Shown here piece after piece: positions 4,147-59,479 of a stretch of DNA of 64,000 nt. Position numbers and translations under genes: made by a program. Numbering within the stretch: the stretch's first letter is position 1; every line of letters starts with the position of its first letter. The notes under the pieces were generated by a model. The model did not search any database. It was not told where the DNA came from and was given only the letters and a program-made list of their open reading frames with translations. Source of the stretch: Lachnospiraceae bacterium 28-4 (GTDB taxonomy: Bacteria > Bacillota > Clostridia > Lachnospirales > Lachnospiraceae); assembly GCA_000403275.2 (NCBI GenBank), contig KE159599.1, positions 977,548 to 1,041,547 on the forward strand, given 5' to 3'.

Positions 4147-4248
4147 AGCAGCGGGATGCGAATTCCGTACCGCAAGCCTTACCGGCTTTTCGTCCGCATG
4201 ACAACTCCCCGTTCATGCGGCACTTAACGCACAGATTTCTACTCTGCT
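4147..4248 (-). ncRNA. Tetrahydrofolate (THF) riboswitch aptamer
   Basis: Read on the minus strand, the folT 5' leader contains the consensus blocks of the THF riboswitch in order: AGAGTAGA, GTGCGTTAAGTG, a GGGGAGTTGT block, ACGAAAAGCC, GCGGTACGG and GCATCCCGC. The outer P1 stem pairs AGCAG (4248-4244) with CTGCT (4151-4147). The aptamer binds reduced folates and controls folate transport or synthesis genes, which fits folT downstream. The match was made by eye against the known motif; a covariance-model score was not computed. Confidence 0.88.
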
Positions 4249-4322: not shown

Positions 4323-4699
4323 CCCACAGAAATCCATTTTTATAAATGCCATGGTGGAGGGGCAGCCAACGGGGGCGAAGGGAAATGCCGCGGCCGGGAA
4401 AGGAGCTGGCAGGGGGCCGGTTTTCTGCTGGGGCTTCCAATCAGATTTCACTAATGAAATGGATATATGGTATCCAACCGGACGAGCCGGAAGCAACGGC
4501 ATCCATGCCTATGCTTCCTAAAACCGCCCTCCCTGGCGGTTTTGCTCTGGTTATTGGCCATTTCATAAGTGAAATAACTGATTGTACGCAACAGCAGAAA
4601 ACCGGCCCCCTGCCAGCTCCTTTCCCGGCCGCGGCATTTCCCTTCGCCCCCGTTGGCTGCCCCTCCACCATGGCATTTATAAAAATGGATTTCTGTGGG
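4323..4699 (+). repeat. Palindromic structured repeat R1 (377 bp, 108-bp perfect arms)
   Basis: Positions 4323-4430 are the exact reverse complement of 4592-4699. The 161-bp core holds further hairpins: TTTCACTAATGAAA, CCGG-ACGA-GCCGG, GGAAGC with GCTTCC around GGCAT-CC-ATGCC, AAAACCGCC-CTCCCT-GGCGGTTTT, and ATTTCATAAGTGAAAT. R2 and R3 share the core and the outermost GAAATCNATTTTTATAA-type ends, but their arm interiors are different sequences. It fills the gap between the folT promoter and the GT-C gene, starting 18 bp past that gene's stop. No gene is present; ORFs in it are by-products of the palindrome. Confidence 0.85.
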
Positions 4700-30392: not shown

Positions 30393-30740
30393 CACAGAAA
30401 TCAATTTTTATAAGCGCCCTGACAGATGGAGCAAAACGGAGCCGGGGCTGCCGGGAAGGGGACTGGCAGGGGACGGTTTTCTGCTGGAGCTTCCAATCAG
30501 ATTTCACTAATGAAATGGATTATGATATCTAACCGGACAAGCCGGAAGCGACGGCATCCATGCCTATGCTTCCTGAACCCGCCCTCCCTGGCGGGTTCGC
30601 TCTGGTTATTGAGCATTTCATAAGTGAAATAGCTGATTGTACGCAACAGCAGAAAACCGTCCCCCGCCAGCCCCCTTCCCGGCAGCCCCGGCTCCGTTTT
30701 GCTCCATCTGTCAGGGCACTTATAAAAATTAATTTCTGTG
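30393..30740 (+). repeat. Palindromic structured repeat R2 (348 bp)
   Basis: Arms 30393-30486 and 30647-30740 are complementary over 94 positions with four mismatches. All four are C/A or A/C on the plus strand, so they become G-U pairs in a minus-strand RNA. The 160-bp core matches R1 in order: TTTCACTAATGAAA, a GGAAGC/GCTTCC hairpin around GGCATCCATGCC, and a hairpin whose stem is AACCCGCC/GGCGGGTT around the same CTCCCT loop. The arm interior differs from R1 and R3. It ends 2 bp before the -35 box of the GntR promoter. Confidence 0.85.
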
Positions 30741-41471: not shown

Positions 41472-41819
41472 CGGAAATGAATTTTTATAAGCGCCCTGGC
41501 GGAGAAAGCAAAACGGGGCGGGGACGGACGGGAAAGGGGCGGGTGGGGGAGGCAGTTTTCTGCCGTTGCGTACAATCAGTTATTTCACTTATGAAATGGT
41601 CAATAACCAGAAGAAAATTGCCACGGAGGGCAATTTTAGGAAGCATAGGCATGGATGCCGTTGCTTCCGGCTCGTCCGGTTCCATTATTTTACCCATTTC
41701 ATTAGTGAAATCTGATTGGAAGCTCCGGCAGAAAACTGCCTCCCCCGCCCGCCCCTTTCCCGTCCGTCCCCGCCCCGTTTTGCTTTCTCCGCCAGGGCGC
41801 TTATAAAAATTCATTTCCG
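41472..41819 (-). repeat. Palindromic structured repeat R3 (348 bp, reverse orientation)
   Basis: Arms 41472-41565 and 41726-41819 are complementary over 94 positions with one mismatch (T/G on the plus strand, a wobble pair there). The core is the reverse complement of the R1/R2 core. Its terminator-like hairpin has changed to AAAATTGCC/GGCAATTTT while keeping the loop, a compensatory change of several pairs. Positions 41337-41912 hold only this element and a terminator. The ORFs read on both strands are mirror images caused by the palindrome. Confidence 0.85.
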
Positions 41820-46411: not shown

Positions 46412-47248
46412 TTAGGGGGACGATTCTCGGTTCTTTTTTCTGACGCCGAGCGCCAGCGCCACAAGGATAATGCTTCCCTCCAGTATATTTTCAAAACGGT
46501 ACAGGTAGCCGCTCCCTGTCAGGAACGTAACCGCCAACGTCACCGCCAAAGCGCCGGACAGCATTCCGAATATACGTCCTTTTCCTGTATTTGGAAGAAC
46601 GCCGCCCAAAAAAACCGCCGTGAGGATTTGATAGAGATAGGTCGCGCCCAATGCGCTGTTGCTGCTCCCTGTGCGGAACATAAGAAATGCGGCAGATATG
46701 GAAAAAAATAACGAAGCAAATAAATGGACCGCTACGGAAATGCCAAAACATTTCACGCCGCTTTCCCGGGCCAGCGGCAGATTTTCCCCTAACATCCTGC
46801 AATACTTTCCATAATAGGTCTTTTCCAGAAAAAAAAATGCCCCTGCCACACAGAGAACAGTTACCGCCAGTTCCATCCCTATATAAATATTACCCCGGTA
46901 GCTTTCCCGCAGTTCGGGTATGACTATGCCTGTATAATCTACCGTTGCCAAAAGGAAGTTAGACAGGATAACCTGCATGGCCAATGTAAAAATAATAGAA
47001 GGAACACGCAGCTTCACGAGAAAAACTGCCTTCAGAAACCCGAGAAAAAAATTAAAGAAAAGAATGCCGATGCATCCCACCCAGACGGGACAGCCTCCGG
47101 CAATCAGAAAAATTCCAATCAGGGCGGATGCGGAAAGCTGTGCCGCAAAAGCAAGATCGATCACTCCGCCGATCATCTCCAGCGACACGCCCACCGTCAA
47201 AAGTGTAATCAGTGATATCTGTCTGATGAGAAAAGAAAGATTTATCAT
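46412..47248 (-). CDS. Second, orphan RbsC-like permease
   Basis: 278 aa from MINLSFLIRQIS, with GAGG 6 nt upstream inside repeat copy B; upstream ATGs lack spacing. The RbsC fold is recognisable: LTVGVSLEMIGGVIDLAFAAQLS (compare GGMDLSVG), FLKAVFLVKLRVPSIIFTLAMQV and RMLGENLPLARESGVKCFG (coupling-loop equivalent). However, the GGxDLSxG motif and the coupling loop have drifted. It follows a catalytically dead ATPase homologue, so it may not transport. Possible roles are sensing or regulating the two-component system upstream. Confidence 0.8.
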   Translation of the reverse strand: MINLSFLIRQISLITLLTVGVSLEMIGGVIDLAFAAQLSASALIGIFLIAGGCPVWVGCIGILFFNFFLGFLKAVFLVKLRVPSIIFTLAMQVILSNFLLATVDYTGIVIPELRESYRGNIYIGMELAVTVLCVAGAFFFLEKTYYGKYCRMLGENLPLARESGVKCFGISVAVHLFASLFFSISAAFLMFRTGSSNSALGATYLYQILTAVFLGGVLPNTGKGRIFGMLSGALAVTLAVTFLTGSGYLYRFENILEGSIILVALALGVRKKNRESSP

Positions 47249-47255
47249 TTTTTGC

Positions 47256-47337
47256 CTCATTTCTGCGCGGTTTTTGTCCCCGCTTTGTTGGGACGGCACA
47301 TGAACAAGTTCGTGAATGCCGCGCAGATCCGAACCTG
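47256..47337 (-). repeat. Short start-codon-proximal repeat, copy B
   Basis: About 82 bp, aligned along its whole length with copy A at 82-165 (GCGCGGCATTC block, CAACAAAG loop, GCGCAGAAATGAGG end). It fills the gap between the dead ATPase gene and the orphan permease and supplies that permease's Shine-Dalgarno GAGG. Confidence 0.55.
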
Positions 47338-47344
47338 TTCCATG

Positions 47345-48733
47345 CTATTTTATATGGATCACTCGATCCGCGATGCTTCTGGCCGCTTCATCAGCAGTCT
47401 CCAGAAGAACAAATGCAGTCCCGCGCCCGGCCATCTGCAAAAGCTGCCCGGCCATCCACCGCTTCATCTCTGGGTCAAAACGGGACAACACATTATAAGC
47501 AATTAACATTCTGGGGTGATATAGTTTCCATCGATAGCACAGCAGTTTCCACACGCCTTCGTCCGTAAGGCTTCCTGTCTCCCTGCCTTCCTCCAAAATC
47601 TCCGAAAAGTCCATATCCTGCAAGATAAACCGCTCCCCGGCCCGGTAAAATCCCATACGGCTGATCCGCTTCATGGACGGCATCAGAATATTATCCGTCA
47701 CACTCATATTCGGAAACAACTCATCCTCTATCCTCTCTTCGCCCCAGAAAAAAATGTTATGTTTTTGTAAAACCTCCGGTTTTTTACAGACGGTCCTCCG
47801 TCCTTTTGCCTCCAGCACCACTCCGCCTTCGCCGAGCCCCATCATCCCGCGGCAAAGCGCTTGCTGATGCTCCCAGCCGTCCGATGGAAAATATAGGATT
47901 TCCCCGGGATGTATCTCAAAGCTGCGCAGTTCTCCATTTGGAGAATGCCAGGAAAAGCGAAAATATTCTTTGCCCTCCGCTCCTGCCGGCTCCTTTTTGG
48001 CCACTCTTTCCGATATTGATCTCGAGGAATGTTCCCAGTAAATTTCAAAAGCCTCCCGGTCATAAAATTTTTTTACGACCTGTCCCTTCTTTACCAATAA
48101 AATATGATCTGCCAGAGATACGAAGCAATTCGGATTGCTGTCATAAACCAACATGGAAATACCTGCTTCCCGTATTTTTCCCAATATTTTCAAAAGCCGT
48201 TCCAAGTCTTCCTTATTGCAAATAAAGGACAGGTTATTGATCACCAGCATCTTAGGCTGCAGATCCGCTAATCTTACTAATTGCAAAAGCACTTTATCAA
48301 TCGCCCGCAGCGATTTCACTTTTTGTTCCGGTTGGAACGGCAGCCCGTAGCGCCGGAACAACTCCTCTGTCCGCAAAAGAACCGCCTTCCGGTTCAGCTT
48401 TACTTTTTTCAGGCTGTTCGGCCGGAGCAGAAAAATGTTTTCTGCCAGATTCAGGGAATTCATAAATCGGACATGGCTGTCCACATAGTAAATTTTTTCC
48501 CTTTGAAAAAAAATTTCCGTACAGTCGCCCGGCATTCCTTCCGCATCAAAGATCCTGCCGCCCACAATGCGGCTGTCCCCGTTGAAGATTTCAGCCAGGC
48601 TCCTTCCTGTATGATCCAGGCTGCAGAGCAGATAACTTTCTTTTTCAAAAAATACCATATTCAGCCCCGTCATTTGCTCCTGATATTTATTTCTGACAGA
48701 AAGCTCATGGAATCGCAAAAAATCCTGTTTCAT
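47345..48733 (-). CDS. Catalytically degenerate RbsA-like double ABC ATPase homologue
   Basis: 462 aa from MKQDFLRFHELSVRN (GAGG 6 nt upstream). It has the length and two-domain layout of RbsA but has lost every ATPase motif. Walker A is SLDHTGRS (expected GENGAGKS), the signature region is LRAIDKVLLQLV, Walker B is MLVINNLS (Asp and Glu both Asn) and the switch region is VYDSNPN. NBD2 has PSDGWEHQQ and MLIAYNVLSRFDP. The frame is open throughout, so it is conserved rather than decayed. It sits between a YesM-type kinase and the orphan permease; a signalling role is inferred. Confidence 0.8.
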   Translation of the reverse strand: MKQDFLRFHELSVRNKYQEQMTGLNMVFFEKESYLLCSLDHTGRSLAEIFNGDSRIVGGRIFDAEGMPGDCTEIFFQREKIYYVDSHVRFMNSLNLAENIFLLRPNSLKKVKLNRKAVLLRTEELFRRYGLPFQPEQKVKSLRAIDKVLLQLVRLADLQPKMLVINNLSFICNKEDLERLLKILGKIREAGISMLVYDSNPNCFVSLADHILLVKKGQVVKKFYDREAFEIYWEHSSRSISERVAKKEPAGAEGKEYFRFSWHSPNGELRSFEIHPGEILYFPSDGWEHQQALCRGMMGLGEGGVVLEAKGRRTVCKKPEVLQKHNIFFWGEERIEDELFPNMSVTDNILMPSMKRISRMGFYRAGERFILQDMDFSEILEEGRETGSLTDEGVWKLLCYRWKLYHPRMLIAYNVLSRFDPEMKRWMAGQLLQMAGRGTAFVLLETADEAARSIADRVIHIK

Positions 48734-48740
48734 ATTTTTC

Positions 48741-48804
48741 CTCATTTCTGCGCGCCTGTATTGCATAGTTCAGGCTTGTGAATGCCGGGCAGACGCAAAT
48801 CCCG
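48741..48804 (-). repeat. Short start-codon-proximal repeat, copy C (short form)
   Basis: About 64 bp. Both ends match copies A and B (GCGTCTGCCCGGCATTCACA and GCGCAGAAATGAGG), but the middle is replaced by a different hairpin, GCCTG/CAGGC. It provides the GAGG ribosome site of the degenerate ATPase gene. Confidence 0.5.
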
Positions 48805-51435: not shown

Positions 51436-51572
51436 CTTTACCTAAGCATTCCTTTCAGCATCCCGTAAACAGGTATTCATCCCCTTTTCATAACAGTCAA
51501 TTTTTGTTTCCGATTCTTTTTTATTATAAATTCTATGGAAGAAACGGTCAAATGTAATTTGGAAAAGCTGGG

Positions 51573-51885
51573 GAAATCAATTTTTATGGGGGCGGGGAAG
51601 GCATGGCTGGGCAGGAGGGGCGGGAGGGATAGAGAAAAGAGGGGGCGCTGGCGGAGGGGCGGCAAAGAAGGGCGGGACAAGTTGGAAATGGTTTTCCGTG
51701 CTGGTTGCGGAAAATGGATTTTCTAAATATTCCGGTAAAATAGCAGCAAACGGACGCAACCGCCCGCTATTCGCCATCCAGGCTCATTGCGGGCTTTTGG
51801 TGACATCCATGTCACCAAATTGCTGTTTTCGGACGGAATATTAAGAAAATCTCATTTTCCTTCACAAAGCAGCGGTAAAACTGAC
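51573..51885 (+). repeat. Palindromic structured repeat R4 (right arm truncated)
   Basis: It begins GAAATCAATTTTTATG, the same end as R2. A G-rich arm of about 110 bp follows, then nested inverted repeats: GGAAAATG/CATTTTCC, GATTTTCT/AGAAAATC, AATATTCCG/CGGAATATT, CAGCAA/TTGCTG, GCCCGC/GCGGGC and a hub GGTGACAT-CC-ATGTCACC (51799-51816). The hub keeps the CATCCATG loop of R1/R2 with a different stem. The partner of the G-rich arm is missing; the sequence runs into the truncated IS4-type transposase near 51885. No gene lies in 51436-51861. Confidence 0.6.
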
Positions 51886-52743
51886 CACCCTCATGGGCTG
51901 GAAGTGGTAAGTGGGGGAGTCCTTGGAAACATAGGAAAAGCAGCGGTTGCCAGGCCGGTATCCCTCCCCCAGCATTCTGGCGCGGCTCTTGTTTCCCTTG
52001 AAGGAATTGGCATGGGCTATTTTGCAGGTGAATGGAAGGTCAAACTCCTTTTGCTCCGGGAAGTCTGCCTTTGCAAGGAACCCCCAGTTGCTGGAAGGCT
52101 TTTTGACCCGGATGACAAACGGGATGCCGCGGGCCTCGAGGTCGGCAACCATCTGGAAGGATTCATAGCCGCGGTCCCCGATGATGATGGAATGCCCCGG
52201 GTCGCTGAGCCGGTCCAGCATAGGCTTCAGCGCCGCCTGCTCCCCCGGCTTCTTCCCGGGATGGACGGCCGCGTCCACATACAGGCCGTCCATAAGGTCA
52301 TAAAGGGCATTCATATGTACGCAGTTCCATCCCTTCTTTCCGGCGCCGTTAAAGAGATAAGAGGAAGCATCCTTTTCGTTCCTGGGGGTATAAATCGTGG
52401 ACCCATCCACAGCCAGCAGGCGGTATCCCTTCCAGCGGGTCCCTTTATACTGGGCGGTAAAAGTACGGAAAAGCATATAGAGCGCATCGGGCTTTATCTT
52501 TAAGCGCTGCTGGTAGAAGGCAGAAGGGGAAGGGCAGTCCGGGCTGTCATGAAAATAATCGGTGAGTTCGTTGCGGATGGTGCTGCCTTCCATCTGGAGA
52601 AGGAAGCGCAGCATGGTAGGGAAGTCGAGTTTTTTTCTGCGGGTAAAATCGGTTTTGCTGTTCCAGACGAATTGTTCTTTCTGGTCGGATATGTGCCTGA
52701 TGGCCTTCCTAAGGCTGGCCTTAATATGTGTGATATGTTTCAT
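51862..52743 (-). pseudogene. IS4-family DDE transposase, C-terminally truncated
   Basis: 293 aa from MKHITHIKASLRKAIRHIS. Two of the three catalytic acids are visible: the Asp in LLAVDGSTIYTP near residue 110 and the Asp in SIIIGDRGYESFQMV near 190. The Y-R-E-K region with the catalytic Glu is missing: after FQPMRVV the frame runs 8 codons into the R4 arm and stops. Family members are over 400 aa, so the enzyme should be inactive. AAGGAGG lies upstream of the ATG. Confidence 0.85.
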
Positions 52744-52895
52744 GGAGTCCTCCTTGGTATGTTTTCATCAAGGGCTCCGCCACACATTTTTGATGATTTG
52801 TCAATACCTTTTTCAAAAAAAGCAAAATAATACCGAAGCAATCGCTGTGATCACTTCGGTATTACAAAGCCTAACTTAATGACATTACCCTGGAT
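52744..52895 (-). mobile_element. Left-end remnant of the IS4-family element
   Basis: Upstream region of the truncated transposase. It holds TTGACA at about 52807-52802 on the minus strand and a hairpin ACCGAAG/CTTCGGT (52832-52861). The boundary with R5 falls near 52895, inside what is the hairpin loop in intact repeats. The opposite IS end was not found. Confidence 0.5.
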
Positions 52896-53097
52896 GGCAA
52901 TTTTAGGAAACGCAGGACAAGGATGTCCTTCGTTTCCGTCCCGTCCGGCTTGAAGTTCTTACTCCATTTCATTAGTGAAATCTGATTGAAAGTTCCAGCA
53001 GAAAATTCCCGCCCCTGGCAGCCCCGTTCCACCCCCAAGCTTTCCACCGCCCATCCTCCGGCGGCTATGGCTCTTGCAAGTCTTGAAAAAATGGATT
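52896..53097 (-). repeat. Palindromic structured repeat R5 (half copy)
   Basis: It corresponds to the right half of R3 in the same orientation: GGCAATTTTAGG, the hub hairpin, CCATTTCATTAGTGAAAT, CTGATT and an outer arm ending AAAAATGGATT. The hub stem is GGAAAC/GTTTCC instead of GGAAGC/GCTTCC, and the inner stem AGGACA/TGTCCT instead of GGCAT/ATGCC. These are pair-preserving changes. The left half is replaced by the IS4 remnant. R4's arm does not match R5's, so they are different copies. Confidence 0.7.
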
Positions 53098-53111
53098 ACC
53101 ACGACCTCCTC

Positions 53112-53610
53112 TCAGATGCGGCTCCGCCTTACCAGCCGTTCATACCGTATCCCCTTATCCGCCGCTTCATTCTCCCATATAAATCCCAGCTTCCTGCAAA
53201 GGCAGACCGAAGCCTCGTTCTCCTTTCGAACCAGCGCCTGTATTTCCTGAAATCCCAGCTCCCTCTCGCCATATTCTATAATCGCTTTACACACTTCATA
53301 GGCATATCCCTTCCCCTGGTAAGGAACGCCGATCACAAATCCCAGCTCCGGCGCATCAAATCCCTGCCTCCAGTTAAGCCCCGCACGGCCTATCACCTCA
53401 TCATTTTCTTTGCGCAGAACCGTCCACAACCCATAGCCGTAAAAACCATAGATTTCTCTAATATAATTTCTAATATACTCCCTTTCGTCTGCCGGATCGG
53501 GAAATAAGTTTTCCATATAATAAGTAATAGAAGGTTCTGCATAAATACGGTAAAATTCTTGTACATCCTCCACAGTCGTCTCCCTGACAAGGCACCGGTC
53601 CGTTTCTAAA
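53112..53610 (-). pseudogene. GNAT acetyltransferase paralogue, C-terminal part (split by IS110)
   Basis: It encodes ETDRCLVRETTVEDVQEFYRI through GFVIGVPYQGKGYAYEVCKA and the end. It closely matches residues from about 131 to the end of the intact protein at 40437-41336. Removing the 1,601-bp IS110 element joins it in frame to 55208-55564 (TWTIL-type junction, GKPWTIL then ETDRC), restoring a protein of about 283 aa. Confidence 0.9.
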
Positions 53611-53680
53611 CCTCCATGCCCGCACACTTGGCACCACCATAAATGAAACTGTGCAGACGATAGGTTCTTGATTTTGTTTG

Positions 53681-53859
53681 TGCCGTTATTTATACTTATG
53701 GCAACGGCAAAAATCGTGTTTATTTTGGGCTGGAAGCCCGTTTTCTAAACTGATTTCAGGTACTCTCATTTGCACCACCACCTGTCCAGCCATTTAAGAA
53801 CCCCGGTTCACGGCAAAAGGACGTATAGTAAAATGATAAGAGACAGAGTACCGTGCCGT
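53681..53859 (+). ncRNA. Candidate bridge RNA of IS110 copy 1
   Basis: The left end folds into three hairpins: TGCCGTT/AACGGCA (53681-53709); GGCTGGA/TCCAGCC (53728-53791); ACGGCA/TGCCGT (53810-53859). The second encloses TTTCTAAA (53742-53749), identical to the target core. The third encloses ATAGTAAA (53825-53832), identical to the element's right end. This order, target loop then donor loop, is that known for IS110 bridge RNAs encoded upstream of the recombinase. Exact RNA ends are not known. Confidence 0.7.
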
Positions 53860-53882
53860 AAATTCCACCAGGAGGTGCCAGT

Positions 53883-55118
53883 ATGGATAGAATTTACGAC
53901 AATTGTTGTGGTATTGATGTTCACAAAAAACTTATCGTTGCCTGCTTCCGATGCGGCAAAAAGCAGGACGTGCGTGAGTTTGGCGCAACAACCAGAGAAC
54001 TCCTCTCATTGGCTGACTGGCTCAAAGAAGGCGGCTGTGAAATGGTCGCTATGGAGAGTACAGCCTCTTATTGGAAGCCTCTGTACAACATCCTTGAATC
54101 TTCTGACTTGAATGCCATGGTGGTCAATGCCCGCCATATGAAAGCTGTTCCAGGTCGAAAAACAGACGTAAAAGATGCGGAATGGATCGCTGACCTTTTA
54201 CAGCACGGTCTGCTTCAGCCCAGTTACATTCCCGACAAAGACCAGCGGGAACTGAGGGAATTAGTCCGTTATCGCAAAAGCCTTGTAGGTGAACGTACCA
54301 GAGAATTGAACAGGCTCCAGAAGATGCTGGAAGGAGCCAACATCAAGTTGTCCGGGACCGTATCTGACATCAATGGCAAAAGCGCCCGCAGCATCCTGGA
54401 GTATCTCCTTACCGGGGAGCCCATCGATGAGGCAAAATACGATGAGATGTATAATCAGAAGGTCATTGCCCATAATCTCAAAGCCACCAGGGAGCAGATC
54501 ATTGATGATCTCAATGGTGTCATGTCATCTCTCCAGCGCCGGATGATGAAGGAACTTCTCATCCATTTGGACGAACTGAATATTCACATCAGAAATCTGG
54601 ATGATGAGATTGACAACTTCATGAAACCGGAGGAAAAGCAAGCTTCCCAGGCAATCCAGGACGTGACTGGCATAGGCAATACCAGTGCCCAGGCCATCAT
54701 TTCTGTCATTGGTACGGATATGGAGCGTTTTCCAACGGATAAACACATTTCATCCTGGGCAGGGTTGTGTCCTGGAGACAATGAAAGCGCCAAAAAGAGA
54801 AAATCTGGAAAGACCAGAAAAGGGAACTCTCTACTACGGACAACATTGATCACCTGTGCGCATGCAGCTGTAAAAAACAAGAAGTCTTACTTCCATGCTC
54901 AGTTTATGCGGATAAGTGCCCACCGAGGGACAAGGCGTGCCTATGTGGCCGTTGCCCATTCCATGCTCATTGCGATATACCACATCCTCAAGGATGGTGT
55001 TGTTTTCAAGGATCTGGGAGCTGATTATTACAACCAGTTCAACAAGGAACGCAAGATCAATGCATACCTTAAAAAGTTAAAAGCGCTTGGTTGGGAAGCT
55101 CCAGTAGTTGCCGCATAA
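53883..55118 (+). CDS. IS110-family transposase/recombinase
   Basis: 411 aa. The DEDD RuvC-like domain has CGIDVHKKLIVAC (Asp near 11), AMESTASYWKPLYN (Glu near 59) and GRKTDVKDAEWIADLLQHG (two Asp near 95-102). A coiled linker follows. The C-terminal Tnp domain has VTGIGNTSAQAIISVIG and the serine region WAGLCPGDNESAKKRKSGKTRKG. GGAGG precedes the ATG. The enzyme recombines donor and target DNA guided by a bridge RNA. Identical to the copy at 58244. Confidence 0.97.
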   Translation: MDRIYDNCCGIDVHKKLIVACFRCGKKQDVREFGATTRELLSLADWLKEGGCEMVAMESTASYWKPLYNILESSDLNAMVVNARHMKAVPGRKTDVKDAEWIADLLQHGLLQPSYIPDKDQRELRELVRYRKSLVGERTRELNRLQKMLEGANIKLSGTVSDINGKSARSILEYLLTGEPIDEAKYDEMYNQKVIAHNLKATREQIIDDLNGVMSSLQRRMMKELLIHLDELNIHIRNLDDEIDNFMKPEEKQASQAIQDVTGIGNTSAQAIISVIGTDMERFPTDKHISSWAGLCPGDNESAKKRKSGKTRKGNSLLRTTLITCAHAAVKNKKSYFHAQFMRISAHRGTRRAYVAVAHSMLIAIYHILKDGVVFKDLGADYYNQFNKERKINAYLKKLKALGWEAPVVAA

Positions 55119-57898: not shown

Positions 57899-58041
57899 TA
57901 ATTTGTAATTCTATTCTTGCAAACTCACTTTCCATACTTACTCTCTATTGCTCATACGAAAAGTTTCTAAACCTCCATGCCCGCACACTTGGCACCACCA
58001 TAAATGAAACTGTGCAGACGATAGGTTCTTGATTTTGTTTG

Positions 58042-58220
58042 TGCCGTTATTTATACTTATGGCAACGGCAAAAATCGTGTTTATTTTGGGCTGGAAGCCC
58101 GTTTTCTAAACTGATTTCAGGTACTCTCATTTGCACCACCACCTGTCCAGCCATTTAAGAACCCCGGTTCACGGCAAAAGGACGTATAGTAAAATGATAA
58201 GAGACAGAGTACCGTGCCGT
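58042..58220 (+). ncRNA. Candidate bridge RNA of IS110 copy 2
   Basis: Identical to the region at 53681-53859: three hairpins, with TTTCTAAA in the second loop and ATAGTAAA in the third. The same guides explain why both copies sit at the same core sequence. Confidence 0.7.
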
Positions 58221-58243
58221 AAATTCCACCAGGAGGTGCCAGT

Positions 58244-59479
58244 ATGGATAGAATTTACGACAATTGTTGTGGTATTGATGTTCACAAAAAACTTATCGTT
58301 GCCTGCTTCCGATGCGGCAAAAAGCAGGACGTGCGTGAGTTTGGCGCAACAACCAGAGAACTCCTCTCATTGGCTGACTGGCTCAAAGAAGGCGGCTGTG
58401 AAATGGTCGCTATGGAGAGTACAGCCTCTTATTGGAAGCCTCTGTACAACATCCTTGAATCTTCTGACTTGAATGCCATGGTGGTCAATGCCCGCCATAT
58501 GAAAGCTGTTCCAGGTCGAAAAACAGACGTAAAAGATGCGGAATGGATCGCTGACCTTTTACAGCACGGTCTGCTTCAGCCCAGTTACATTCCCGACAAA
58601 GACCAGCGGGAACTGAGGGAATTAGTCCGTTATCGCAAAAGCCTTGTAGGTGAACGTACCAGAGAATTGAACAGGCTCCAGAAGATGCTGGAAGGAGCCA
58701 ACATCAAGTTGTCCGGGACCGTATCTGACATCAATGGCAAAAGCGCCCGCAGCATCCTGGAGTATCTCCTTACCGGGGAGCCCATCGATGAGGCAAAATA
58801 CGATGAGATGTATAATCAGAAGGTCATTGCCCATAATCTCAAAGCCACCAGGGAGCAGATCATTGATGATCTCAATGGTGTCATGTCATCTCTCCAGCGC
58901 CGGATGATGAAGGAACTTCTCATCCATTTGGACGAACTGAATATTCACATCAGAAATCTGGATGATGAGATTGACAACTTCATGAAACCGGAGGAAAAGC
59001 AAGCTTCCCAGGCAATCCAGGACGTGACTGGCATAGGCAATACCAGTGCCCAGGCCATCATTTCTGTCATTGGTACGGATATGGAGCGTTTTCCAACGGA
59101 TAAACACATTTCATCCTGGGCAGGGTTGTGTCCTGGAGACAATGAAAGCGCCAAAAAGAGAAAATCTGGAAAGACCAGAAAAGGGAACTCTCTACTACGG
59201 ACAACATTGATCACCTGTGCGCATGCAGCTGTAAAAAACAAGAAGTCTTACTTCCATGCTCAGTTTATGCGGATAAGTGCCCACCGAGGGACAAGGCGTG
59301 CCTATGTGGCCGTTGCCCATTCCATGCTCATTGCGATATACCACATCCTCAAGGATGGTGTTGTTTTCAAGGATCTGGGAGCTGATTATTACAACCAGTT
59401 CAACAAGGAACGCAAGATCAATGCATACCTTAAAAAGTTAAAAGCGCTTGGTTGGGAAGCTCCAGTAGTTGCCGCATAA
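58244..59479 (+). CDS. IS110-family transposase/recombinase (second copy)
   Basis: 411 aa, identical to the protein at 53883-55118: DEDD RuvC-like domain (CGIDVHKK, AMEST, KTDVKDAEW), coiled linker and C-terminal serine-containing Tnp domain (WAGLCPGDNES). It has its own GGAGG. Being intact in both copies, it may still be active. Confidence 0.97.
   Translation: MDRIYDNCCGIDVHKKLIVACFRCGKKQDVREFGATTRELLSLADWLKEGGCEMVAMESTASYWKPLYNILESSDLNAMVVNARHMKAVPGRKTDVKDAEWIADLLQHGLLQPSYIPDKDQRELRELVRYRKSLVGERTRELNRLQKMLEGANIKLSGTVSDINGKSARSILEYLLTGEPIDEAKYDEMYNQKVIAHNLKATREQIIDDLNGVMSSLQRRMMKELLIHLDELNIHIRNLDDEIDNFMKPEEKQASQAIQDVTGIGNTSAQAIISVIGTDMERFPTDKHISSWAGLCPGDNESAKKRKSGKTRKGNSLLRTTLITCAHAAVKNKKSYFHAQFMRISAHRGTRRAYVAVAHSMLIAIYHILKDGVVFKDLGADYYNQFNKERKINAYLKKLKALGWEAPVVAA

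Follow-up and report, generated by a model that had tools for sequence, protein, structure and literature searches.

Copy-specific palindromes carrying the TwoAYGGAY RNA in Lachnospiraceae bacterium 28-4: probable MITE-like elements with arms probably matched by fold-back copying

Introduction

How do the two arms of a long palindrome stay complementary to each other while the arms of related copies differ widely? The question is raised by three palindromes, R1 to R3, in a 64-kb stretch of the genome of Lachnospiraceae bacterium 28-4, referred to here as the window (the whole 64,000 nucleotides analysed). An earlier note, made from the letters of this DNA, held that such arms need either selection for a stem or fold-back copying, and knew of no named bacterial element with this design. 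Here these alternatives are weighed against the copies found in the host genome and in its relatives.

Results

Palindromes of the window and their RNA core

R1 (4325–4697, minus strand; first noted as 4323–4699), R2 (30393–30740, minus strand) and R3 (41472–41819, plus strand) are complete elements of one subtype, B. The ends of R1 were taken from the sequence and its strand from the RNA match described below; R2 and R3 were delimited by repeat search and arm pairing. Outside the core, 108 of 108 arm positions pair in R1, 90 of 94 in R2 and 93 of 94 in R3, in full agreement with the earlier description of perfect 108-bp arms in the first and of 94-bp arms with four and one mismatches in the other two. 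Folding of R1 as RNA gave −319.9 kcal/mol, compared to a mean of −135.3 for 100 shuffled versions (z −30). The cores of R1 (4431–4591, minus strand, 88.8 bits), R2 (30487–30646, minus strand, 80.7 bits) and R3 (41566–41725, plus strand, 87.5 bits) matched the covariance model of a named RNA family, Rfam RF01731 (TwoAYGGAY). The view that no named bacterial element has this design was therefore half right: the core has a name.

In addition to R1–R3, the window contains a rearranged copy at about 51570–53103 that had been overlooked. There, a B-type half-element with one arm and a partial core (52888–53103, minus strand; found through repeats, ends from the sequence) is cut by a truncated insertion sequence (IS) of the IS4 family (51881–52887, minus strand; delimited by copy comparison), which has the end TAATGTCATTAAG.. 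and has landed within the AYGGAY hairpin of this B-type copy. Its truncated transposase ORF (51862–52743, minus strand) encodes 293 aa, intact copies having 440 aa counted from the ATG. The third part is an A-type half-element (51570–51867, minus strand), formed by a core at 51702–51867 (117.8 bits) and a right arm extending to about 51570.

Other features of the window include a THF riboswitch (RF01831, 95.9 bits; 4147–4248, minus strand) that adjoins R1, and a pemK RNA motif (RF02913; 59900–59968, minus strand) whose 36.5 bits lie barely above the cut-off of 34.8. Two copies of an IS110-family IS (53602–55118 and 57963–59479) are identical over 300 nt that begin upstream of the transposase ORF and extend into it, and their 411-aa ORFs have the same Pfam assignments at equal scores. 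A 38-nt repeat ending in CTCATTTCTGCGC(G/A) occurs at three sites (58–95, 47232–47269 and 48717–48754).

Census of TwoAYGGAY cores

Among 79 loci, those whose lgt is closest to that of the window (80–93% identity) come from six records named Lachnospiraceae, which places the host in this family. A search of the host genome (4.28 Mb, 7 contigs) revealed at least 62 RF01731 matches, all 62 listed above the gathering score of 43 bits, a lower bound since 150 of 166 candidates were scored. By score they were divided into 22 A-type (107–121 bits) and 40 B-type copies (59–96 bits, R1–R3 included). A DNA search with R2 hit 17 more places outside the 62-core list. Five pairs of elements adjoin each other, with core starts 332–434 bp apart (C2:131313/131680, C1:1031191/1031554, C3:653045/653430, C1:1195130/1195564 and C3:333495/333827), which suggests a tendency of new copies to insert next to existing ones. 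The host genome and its relatives also contain long palindromes that have no TwoAYGGAY match or are of other sequence (L302, 1366–1589; gaps of L256 and L258), and more than one palindrome family may be present here.

Neither viral contigs (exact search with two sequence patterns) nor plasmids and phages (blastn) gave a match. In the literature on MITEs with structured RNA, and in that on the concerted evolution of such arms, this element appeared in no title or abstract among the matches listed, and the words "transposon", "insertion sequence" and "inverted repeat" are absent from the main text of PMC2864571.

Arms are copy-specific in the host and its sister species

In the host genome, the best match of a left arm among the 62 right arms was that of its own copy in 59 of 62 cases, confirming that the arms are self-matching yet copy-specific. 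The three exceptions were the half-element of the window (51702–51867), C1:525046, and C1:1549697, a sibling of R2. The median arm alignment score was 79.5 within copies vs 11.5 for 2022 same-type pairs between copies. G and A prevail in the 5' arm interiors of 100 copies from two genomes (G 47%, A 25%, C 19%, T 10%). The second genome is that of a sister species, G004, for which 49 of 53 matches were used, the other four being partial at contig ends; the arm-identity comparison drops five of the resulting 111 copies because of missing DNA, and that of arm interiors six further copies with short interiors. Interiors at least 85% alike were found in only one pair of copies in the host genome, and ten pairs in G004, some of them at shared sites, had interiors 85–90% alike.

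In four further relatives (G001, G002, G003 and G005), the arms of 33 fetched copies paired over 30–106 positions at 95%, and alignments of at least 40 positions were obtained for 25 of the 33 copies vs 56 of 300 control pairs from different copies. The arms of 22 copies from G009, G012, G015, G019 and G023 aligned over 29–91 positions, with the own right arm as best match in 13; some of the nine misses were G009 and G015 copies that strongly matched each other's arms. As the more distant species carry TwoAYGGAY mostly with shorter arms, and as the own arm was the best match in only 13 of these 22 copies, long copy-specific arms are not a trait of the whole TwoAYGGAY family, but are strongest in the host genome and in G004.

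The palindromes have the features of a mobile element

The copies share the ends CACGGAAATC…GATTTCCGTG, with a terminal inverted repeat consensus of CACGGAAATC[AC]ATTTT, so that the outer ends are indeed conserved between copies, as had been noticed at the outset; the host DNA outside them has no clear motif. Of the 111 copies (62 from the host and 49 from G004), 53 allowed the two end motifs to be located, and sites with one or both ends unplaced were left out of claims about exact sites. For these 53 copies a target duplication of 9 bp was the best of 104 end and length settings, with a z of 14.7 relative to shuffled partners that is somewhat too high because copies at shared sites are not independent. 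The duplication matched at 8–9 of nine positions in 14 of the 53 copies, compared to 0.26 expected. That of R2, GTGTCAAGA/GCGTCAAGA read on the minus strand, is identical at 8 of 9. Site C1:921605, occupied in the host and in G004, lacks the element in G001, G002, G003 and G013 (read by eye), and site C2:659519, also occupied in both, lacks it in G001 and G003.

MITEs are non-autonomous derivatives of IS elements. The palindromes are short and multi-copy, with inverted ends and a duplication of fixed length, and were judged to be non-coding from their size and sequence. With their scattered location, shared terminal inverted repeats, 9-bp duplication and absence at the same sites in some relatives, they are probably non-autonomous MITE-like transposable elements of about 350 bp carrying a TwoAYGGAY RNA core; we favour this reading with moderate confidence, jointly with the upkeep of the arms by fold-back copying discussed below. 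The earlier note would have given up its view for an IS-derived MITE whose terminal repeats are ordinary and conserved. In their ends and 9-bp duplication the palindromes do resemble MITEs, but their arms are unusual, and a parent IS did not emerge from the searches described next.

No autonomous copy with the same ends was detected in 15 stretches of the host genome, 13 of them around lone end motifs, which held broken elements, no element or, at C2:505783, an already known copy. Ends paired 650–4500 bp apart in the fetched loci provided four candidates, of which the one convincing case (L062) was rejected as an IS nested in a palindrome; no mobilising transposase was found in the loci and stretches searched. 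We would guess that the mover is a DDE transposase making 8–10-bp duplications, for example an IS4Sa-like one. In the REP/RAYT system a Y1 (RAYT) transposase adjoins the repeats and target duplication is absent. A mobiliser of this kind was also discarded, as none of four Y1_Tnp matches had an RF01731 match within 1.5 kb and the 9-bp duplication is present.

An IS4-family IS invades the palindromes

The IS of the window has seven intact copies in addition to its own truncated one. An intact copy matches NF033592, IS4 family transposase, with 175 bits, and the window transposase is identical to all seven up to residue 287. As TwoAYGGAY parts lie on both sides of it, this IS was considered as the autonomous parent and rejected: six of the eight copies are inserted inside palindromes, in the AYGGAY hairpin of a TwoAYGGAY core, and the IS is an invader of these elements. 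Its duplications are of about 10 bp (e.g., CCATGGATGG) where both sides are present, and a tblastn search of the fetched loci with the window transposase returned copies of that IS alone. The converse proposal, that the palindromes are cut-down relics of this IS, could draw on its position within such an element (51881–52887); given its hairpin location in six of eight copies, its duplications of about 10 bp and its own ends, TAATGTCATTAAGTTAGG, which differ from those of the palindromes, this proposal is refuted for practical purposes.

At locus L315 of G001, a TwoAYGGAY core is interrupted at an AYGGAY hairpin by a few hundred bases with the ends TAATGTCATT..AATGACATT. These ends resemble those of the IS4-family IS, and the insert is too short for a transposase gene.

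Arms turn over at sites shared with the sister species

Flank matching placed ten G004 copies at a host copy with both flanks, and others with one flank. In seven shared pairs of the same subfamily (one with a single flank), the arms differ at 37–53% of ungapped positions, and differences present in both arms (concerted) vs in one arm (single) numbered 28/11, 19/7, 27/9, 26/5, 46/1, 42/4 and 18/4, with 7 to 73 gap columns per pair set aside. Two shared sites were omitted: C93:38268, where an old copy has a new neighbour, and C28:42117, where one copy is matched by two. At C1:921605, 37% of arm positions differ between the two species, with 26 columns concerted, 5 single and 3 complex, whereas the right flank is identical at 241 of 251 positions (96%), a stretch that reaches a gene start and may be constrained; longer flanks are 93.5% and 88.8% identical. 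The core at this site is inverted relative to the flanks between host and G004.

Unrelated copies have arm identities of 0.61 ± 0.08 (A) and 0.57 ± 0.09 (B), and the values at shared sites, 0.48–0.61 in nine of ten same-subfamily comparisons, were no higher. The remaining one, 0.68 at C1:921605, slightly exceeds the 95th percentile of unrelated pairs (0.665) without reaching their maximum (0.724). At sites common with the sister species the arms are far more different than the flanks. At C2:128811 and C2:659519 the right duplication copies have the same base in host and G004 where the left copies have another (one base each), suggesting that these insertions predate the species split. C2:659519 and C2:229286 have both flanks matched, yet hold different subfamilies in host and G004. 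Evidence against such early insertion comes from C2:556300, where a new copy adjoins the terminus of an earlier one, and from R2, near which G004 has its copy at another position. The G004 copies at the shared sites C79:9037 and C93:38268 belong to the G004 family with similar arms. We infer turnover both of the arms and of entire elements at old sites, through within-copy correction and between-copy replacement.

Selection on an RNA stem and simple decay as rival explanations

If the arms were kept paired by selection on an RNA stem, with TwoAYGGAY and its arms acting, for example, as a CsrA-binding sponge or a stable sRNA, G·U pairs should be favoured among the mismatches. Sixty of the 62 host copies (without the window half-element and C3:333827) gave 5770 arm pairs, of which 5492 were Watson-Crick, 106 G·T-type, 110 A·C-type (14 of these from C1:525046 alone) and 62 other. 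This absence of a G·U excess speaks against selection on the arms. Core hairpins of host and G004 copies, used as a control, did show 36 G·U vs 14 A·C, with 170 other non-pairs among 1580 cells, in favour of an RNA role; as two positions in the A-type copies of G004 account for 20 of the 36 (the remainder being 16 vs 14), this control is weak. The core being a conserved RNA family, the great stability of the long stem in the folding of R1, the CsrA binding proposed for TwoAYGGAY (PMC4333381) and the presence of CsrA in the host genome would all suit a selected stem. However, the RNA strand does not follow the direction of nearby genes (tandem sites: 24 in the same and 26 in the opposite direction; 34 sites between divergent and 11 between convergent ORFs; crude ORF calls), and G003, a 97% complete genome, has TwoAYGGAY with no CsrA detected. 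In a set of 41 genomes, CsrA was found in 11 of the 14 that have a TwoAYGGAY match and in 17 of the 27 that lack one (in one of these 17 with a score under the family cut-off), at most 51 TwoAYGGAY candidates having been scored per genome, so that some zero counts may be misses. A CsrA link by co-occurrence was set aside as not discriminating. Selection on the stem is thus a rather unlikely explanation, and the evidence against it bears on selection on the arms, not on a function of the core. Nearly as unlikely, in our view, is that the arms were perfect at insertion, with a transposase needing long matched ends, and have only decayed since. Most mismatches (216 of 278) are transitions, in line with plain mutation, and the ten similar G004 pairs could be a recent family. 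Arm mismatch, however, does not track the decay of the duplication, being 0.051 where the duplication is clear (at least 6 of 9, n = 24) vs 0.054 elsewhere (n = 29; Spearman p 0.16). Moreover, the duplications of those 24 copies differ at 0.176, compared to 0.051 for their arms (Fisher 4e-10), an excess that shrinks at thresholds 7 and 8 (p 0.013 and 0.057; duplication 0.087 vs arm 0.047 at the strictest) because such selection favours intact duplications. Mismatch is also uneven along the arm: about 3% at 10–60 nt from the core side and 7–8% further out, with 23–43% over the last four bases. The innermost 10 nt reach 8%, the core being asymmetric there, and outer positions 6–12 have just 3%, a stretch in which matches are favoured by the search motif.

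Fold-back template switching as the probable cause

In eight close sibling pairs, chosen for similarity, arm columns were identical in 628 cases, concerted in 81, single in 75 and complex in 35, with 13 symmetric vs 18 asymmetric gap patterns. In the cleanest pair, C2:240761/C2:470641, 11 columns were concerted, none was single and 3 were complex, with two symmetric indels; the pattern is not uniform, as R2/C1:1549697 had 3 concerted and 19 single. Arms agree within copies, and many differences between siblings are present in both arms. In four of 53 copies the palindrome runs at least 4 nt into the host flank (12, 6, 6 and 4 nt), about 0.4 being expected; at one of them, C1:1511898, G004 has a different insertion, and neither version is seen in other relatives. 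The absence of a G·U excess, the concerted sibling changes, the one core inversion and these flank extensions lean to DNA-level fold-back copying, the second of the two causes proposed in the earlier note, and away from stem selection, the first. Upkeep at the DNA level is also favoured by the arm mismatch that fails to follow duplication decay and by its uneven course along the arm.

The best explanation, though not one for all observations, is probably that arm agreement is kept at the DNA level by fold-back template switching, a reading to which, together with the MITE-like one, we attach the moderate confidence given above. The arms would form a hairpin during replication, and the nascent strand would copy one arm from the other, removing mismatches; such fold-back copying may sometimes invert the core and sometimes run beyond the element end. 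Template switching between inverted repeats is described as producing arm homogenisation and spacer inversion (PMC8604942), and as able to create and maintain stems (PMC8794818). Arm homogenisation and core inversion, both expected of this process, are seen in these palindromes. Old copies would also be replaced or overwritten by others, as some shared sites changed subfamily; at C2:659519 and C2:229286 this change goes beyond template switching, so that replacement by another copy is needed, and the concerted differences at shared sites could be due to replacement too. In the intrastrand-switching model an excess of G-C and U-A is predicted (PMC8794818), which the A excess of the 5' arm does not fit.

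The nearest rival of template switching is RecA-type gene conversion, between the arms of one copy and between copies, which would likewise homogenise arms and invert the core. Conversion between copies fits the subfamily change at shared sites, the membership of the G004 copies at C79:9037 and C93:38268 in a similar-arm family, and perhaps the ten G004 pairs that are 85–90% alike. From a homology-driven process, however, extension of the palindrome into unrelated host flank (4 of 53 copies) is unexpected, and the host genome has only one pair with interiors at least 85% alike; we consider conversion in place of template switching unlikely, although less so than a selected stem or simple decay. 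Counted against template switching itself were the divergence of arms at shared sites, the uneven sibling pattern, the weak G·U control and the shorter arms of distant copies, as well as the new insertion at C2:556300, the shifted G004 copy near R2 and the failure to find an autonomous partner. More speculative, and in our judgement improbable, is that the element multiplies via a self-folded single strand, one arm being rebuilt from the other by error-prone fold-back synthesis in each round. Each copy would then receive new, perfectly matched arms, and the replication cycle of a transposon would itself make long inverted repeats.

Discussion

If, as we favour, the palindromes are MITE-like elements with arms maintained by fold-back template switching, an orphan RNA family gains context, since in this clade TwoAYGGAY would ride a mobile element, and its copy number and scatter would need no regulatory explanation. 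Fold-back repair could be measured on the dozens of natural palindromes that each genome offers, whose arms reach and even exceed 100 bp. There is also a warning here, that paired changes in a long stem may arise without RNA selection, which matters for covariation tests of RNA structure.

The cores match the full 168-position model of RF01731 with 59–121 bits at 62 places in the host; what differs from the Rfam family as described is that the RNA motif is carried here by a mobile palindrome, between copy-specific arms that the model does not cover. With bacterial MITEs the elements share a size of about 350 bp, inverted ends, a 9-bp duplication, dozens of copies and empty sites, but their terminal repeat is conserved over the outer 10–17 bp only, the remaining arm being copy-specific.

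The IS4Sa subgroup has the end pattern CA------T and 8–10-bp duplications (PMC2266710), which the CACGGAAAT end and the 9-bp duplication of the palindromes fit. These are two short features, and a transposase with palindrome ends was not found in the loci examined, so the likeness may serve as a lead, not as a test. IS elements of five families, IS4 among them, were reported in REP sequences, including ISRm22 of the IS4 family (PMC1525189), so that the habit of landing in repeated palindromes was already known; the preferred target here is the AYGGAY hairpin of TwoAYGGAY instead of REP, a target not described in the available part of that report.

Finally, template-switch (quasipalindrome) mutation shares with our palindromes both arm homogenisation and spacer inversion (PMC8794818, PMC8604942). 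The reports, in the parts available, concern RNA genes and yeast coding genes, whereas here the arms reach about 100 bp and belong to dozens of mobile copies.
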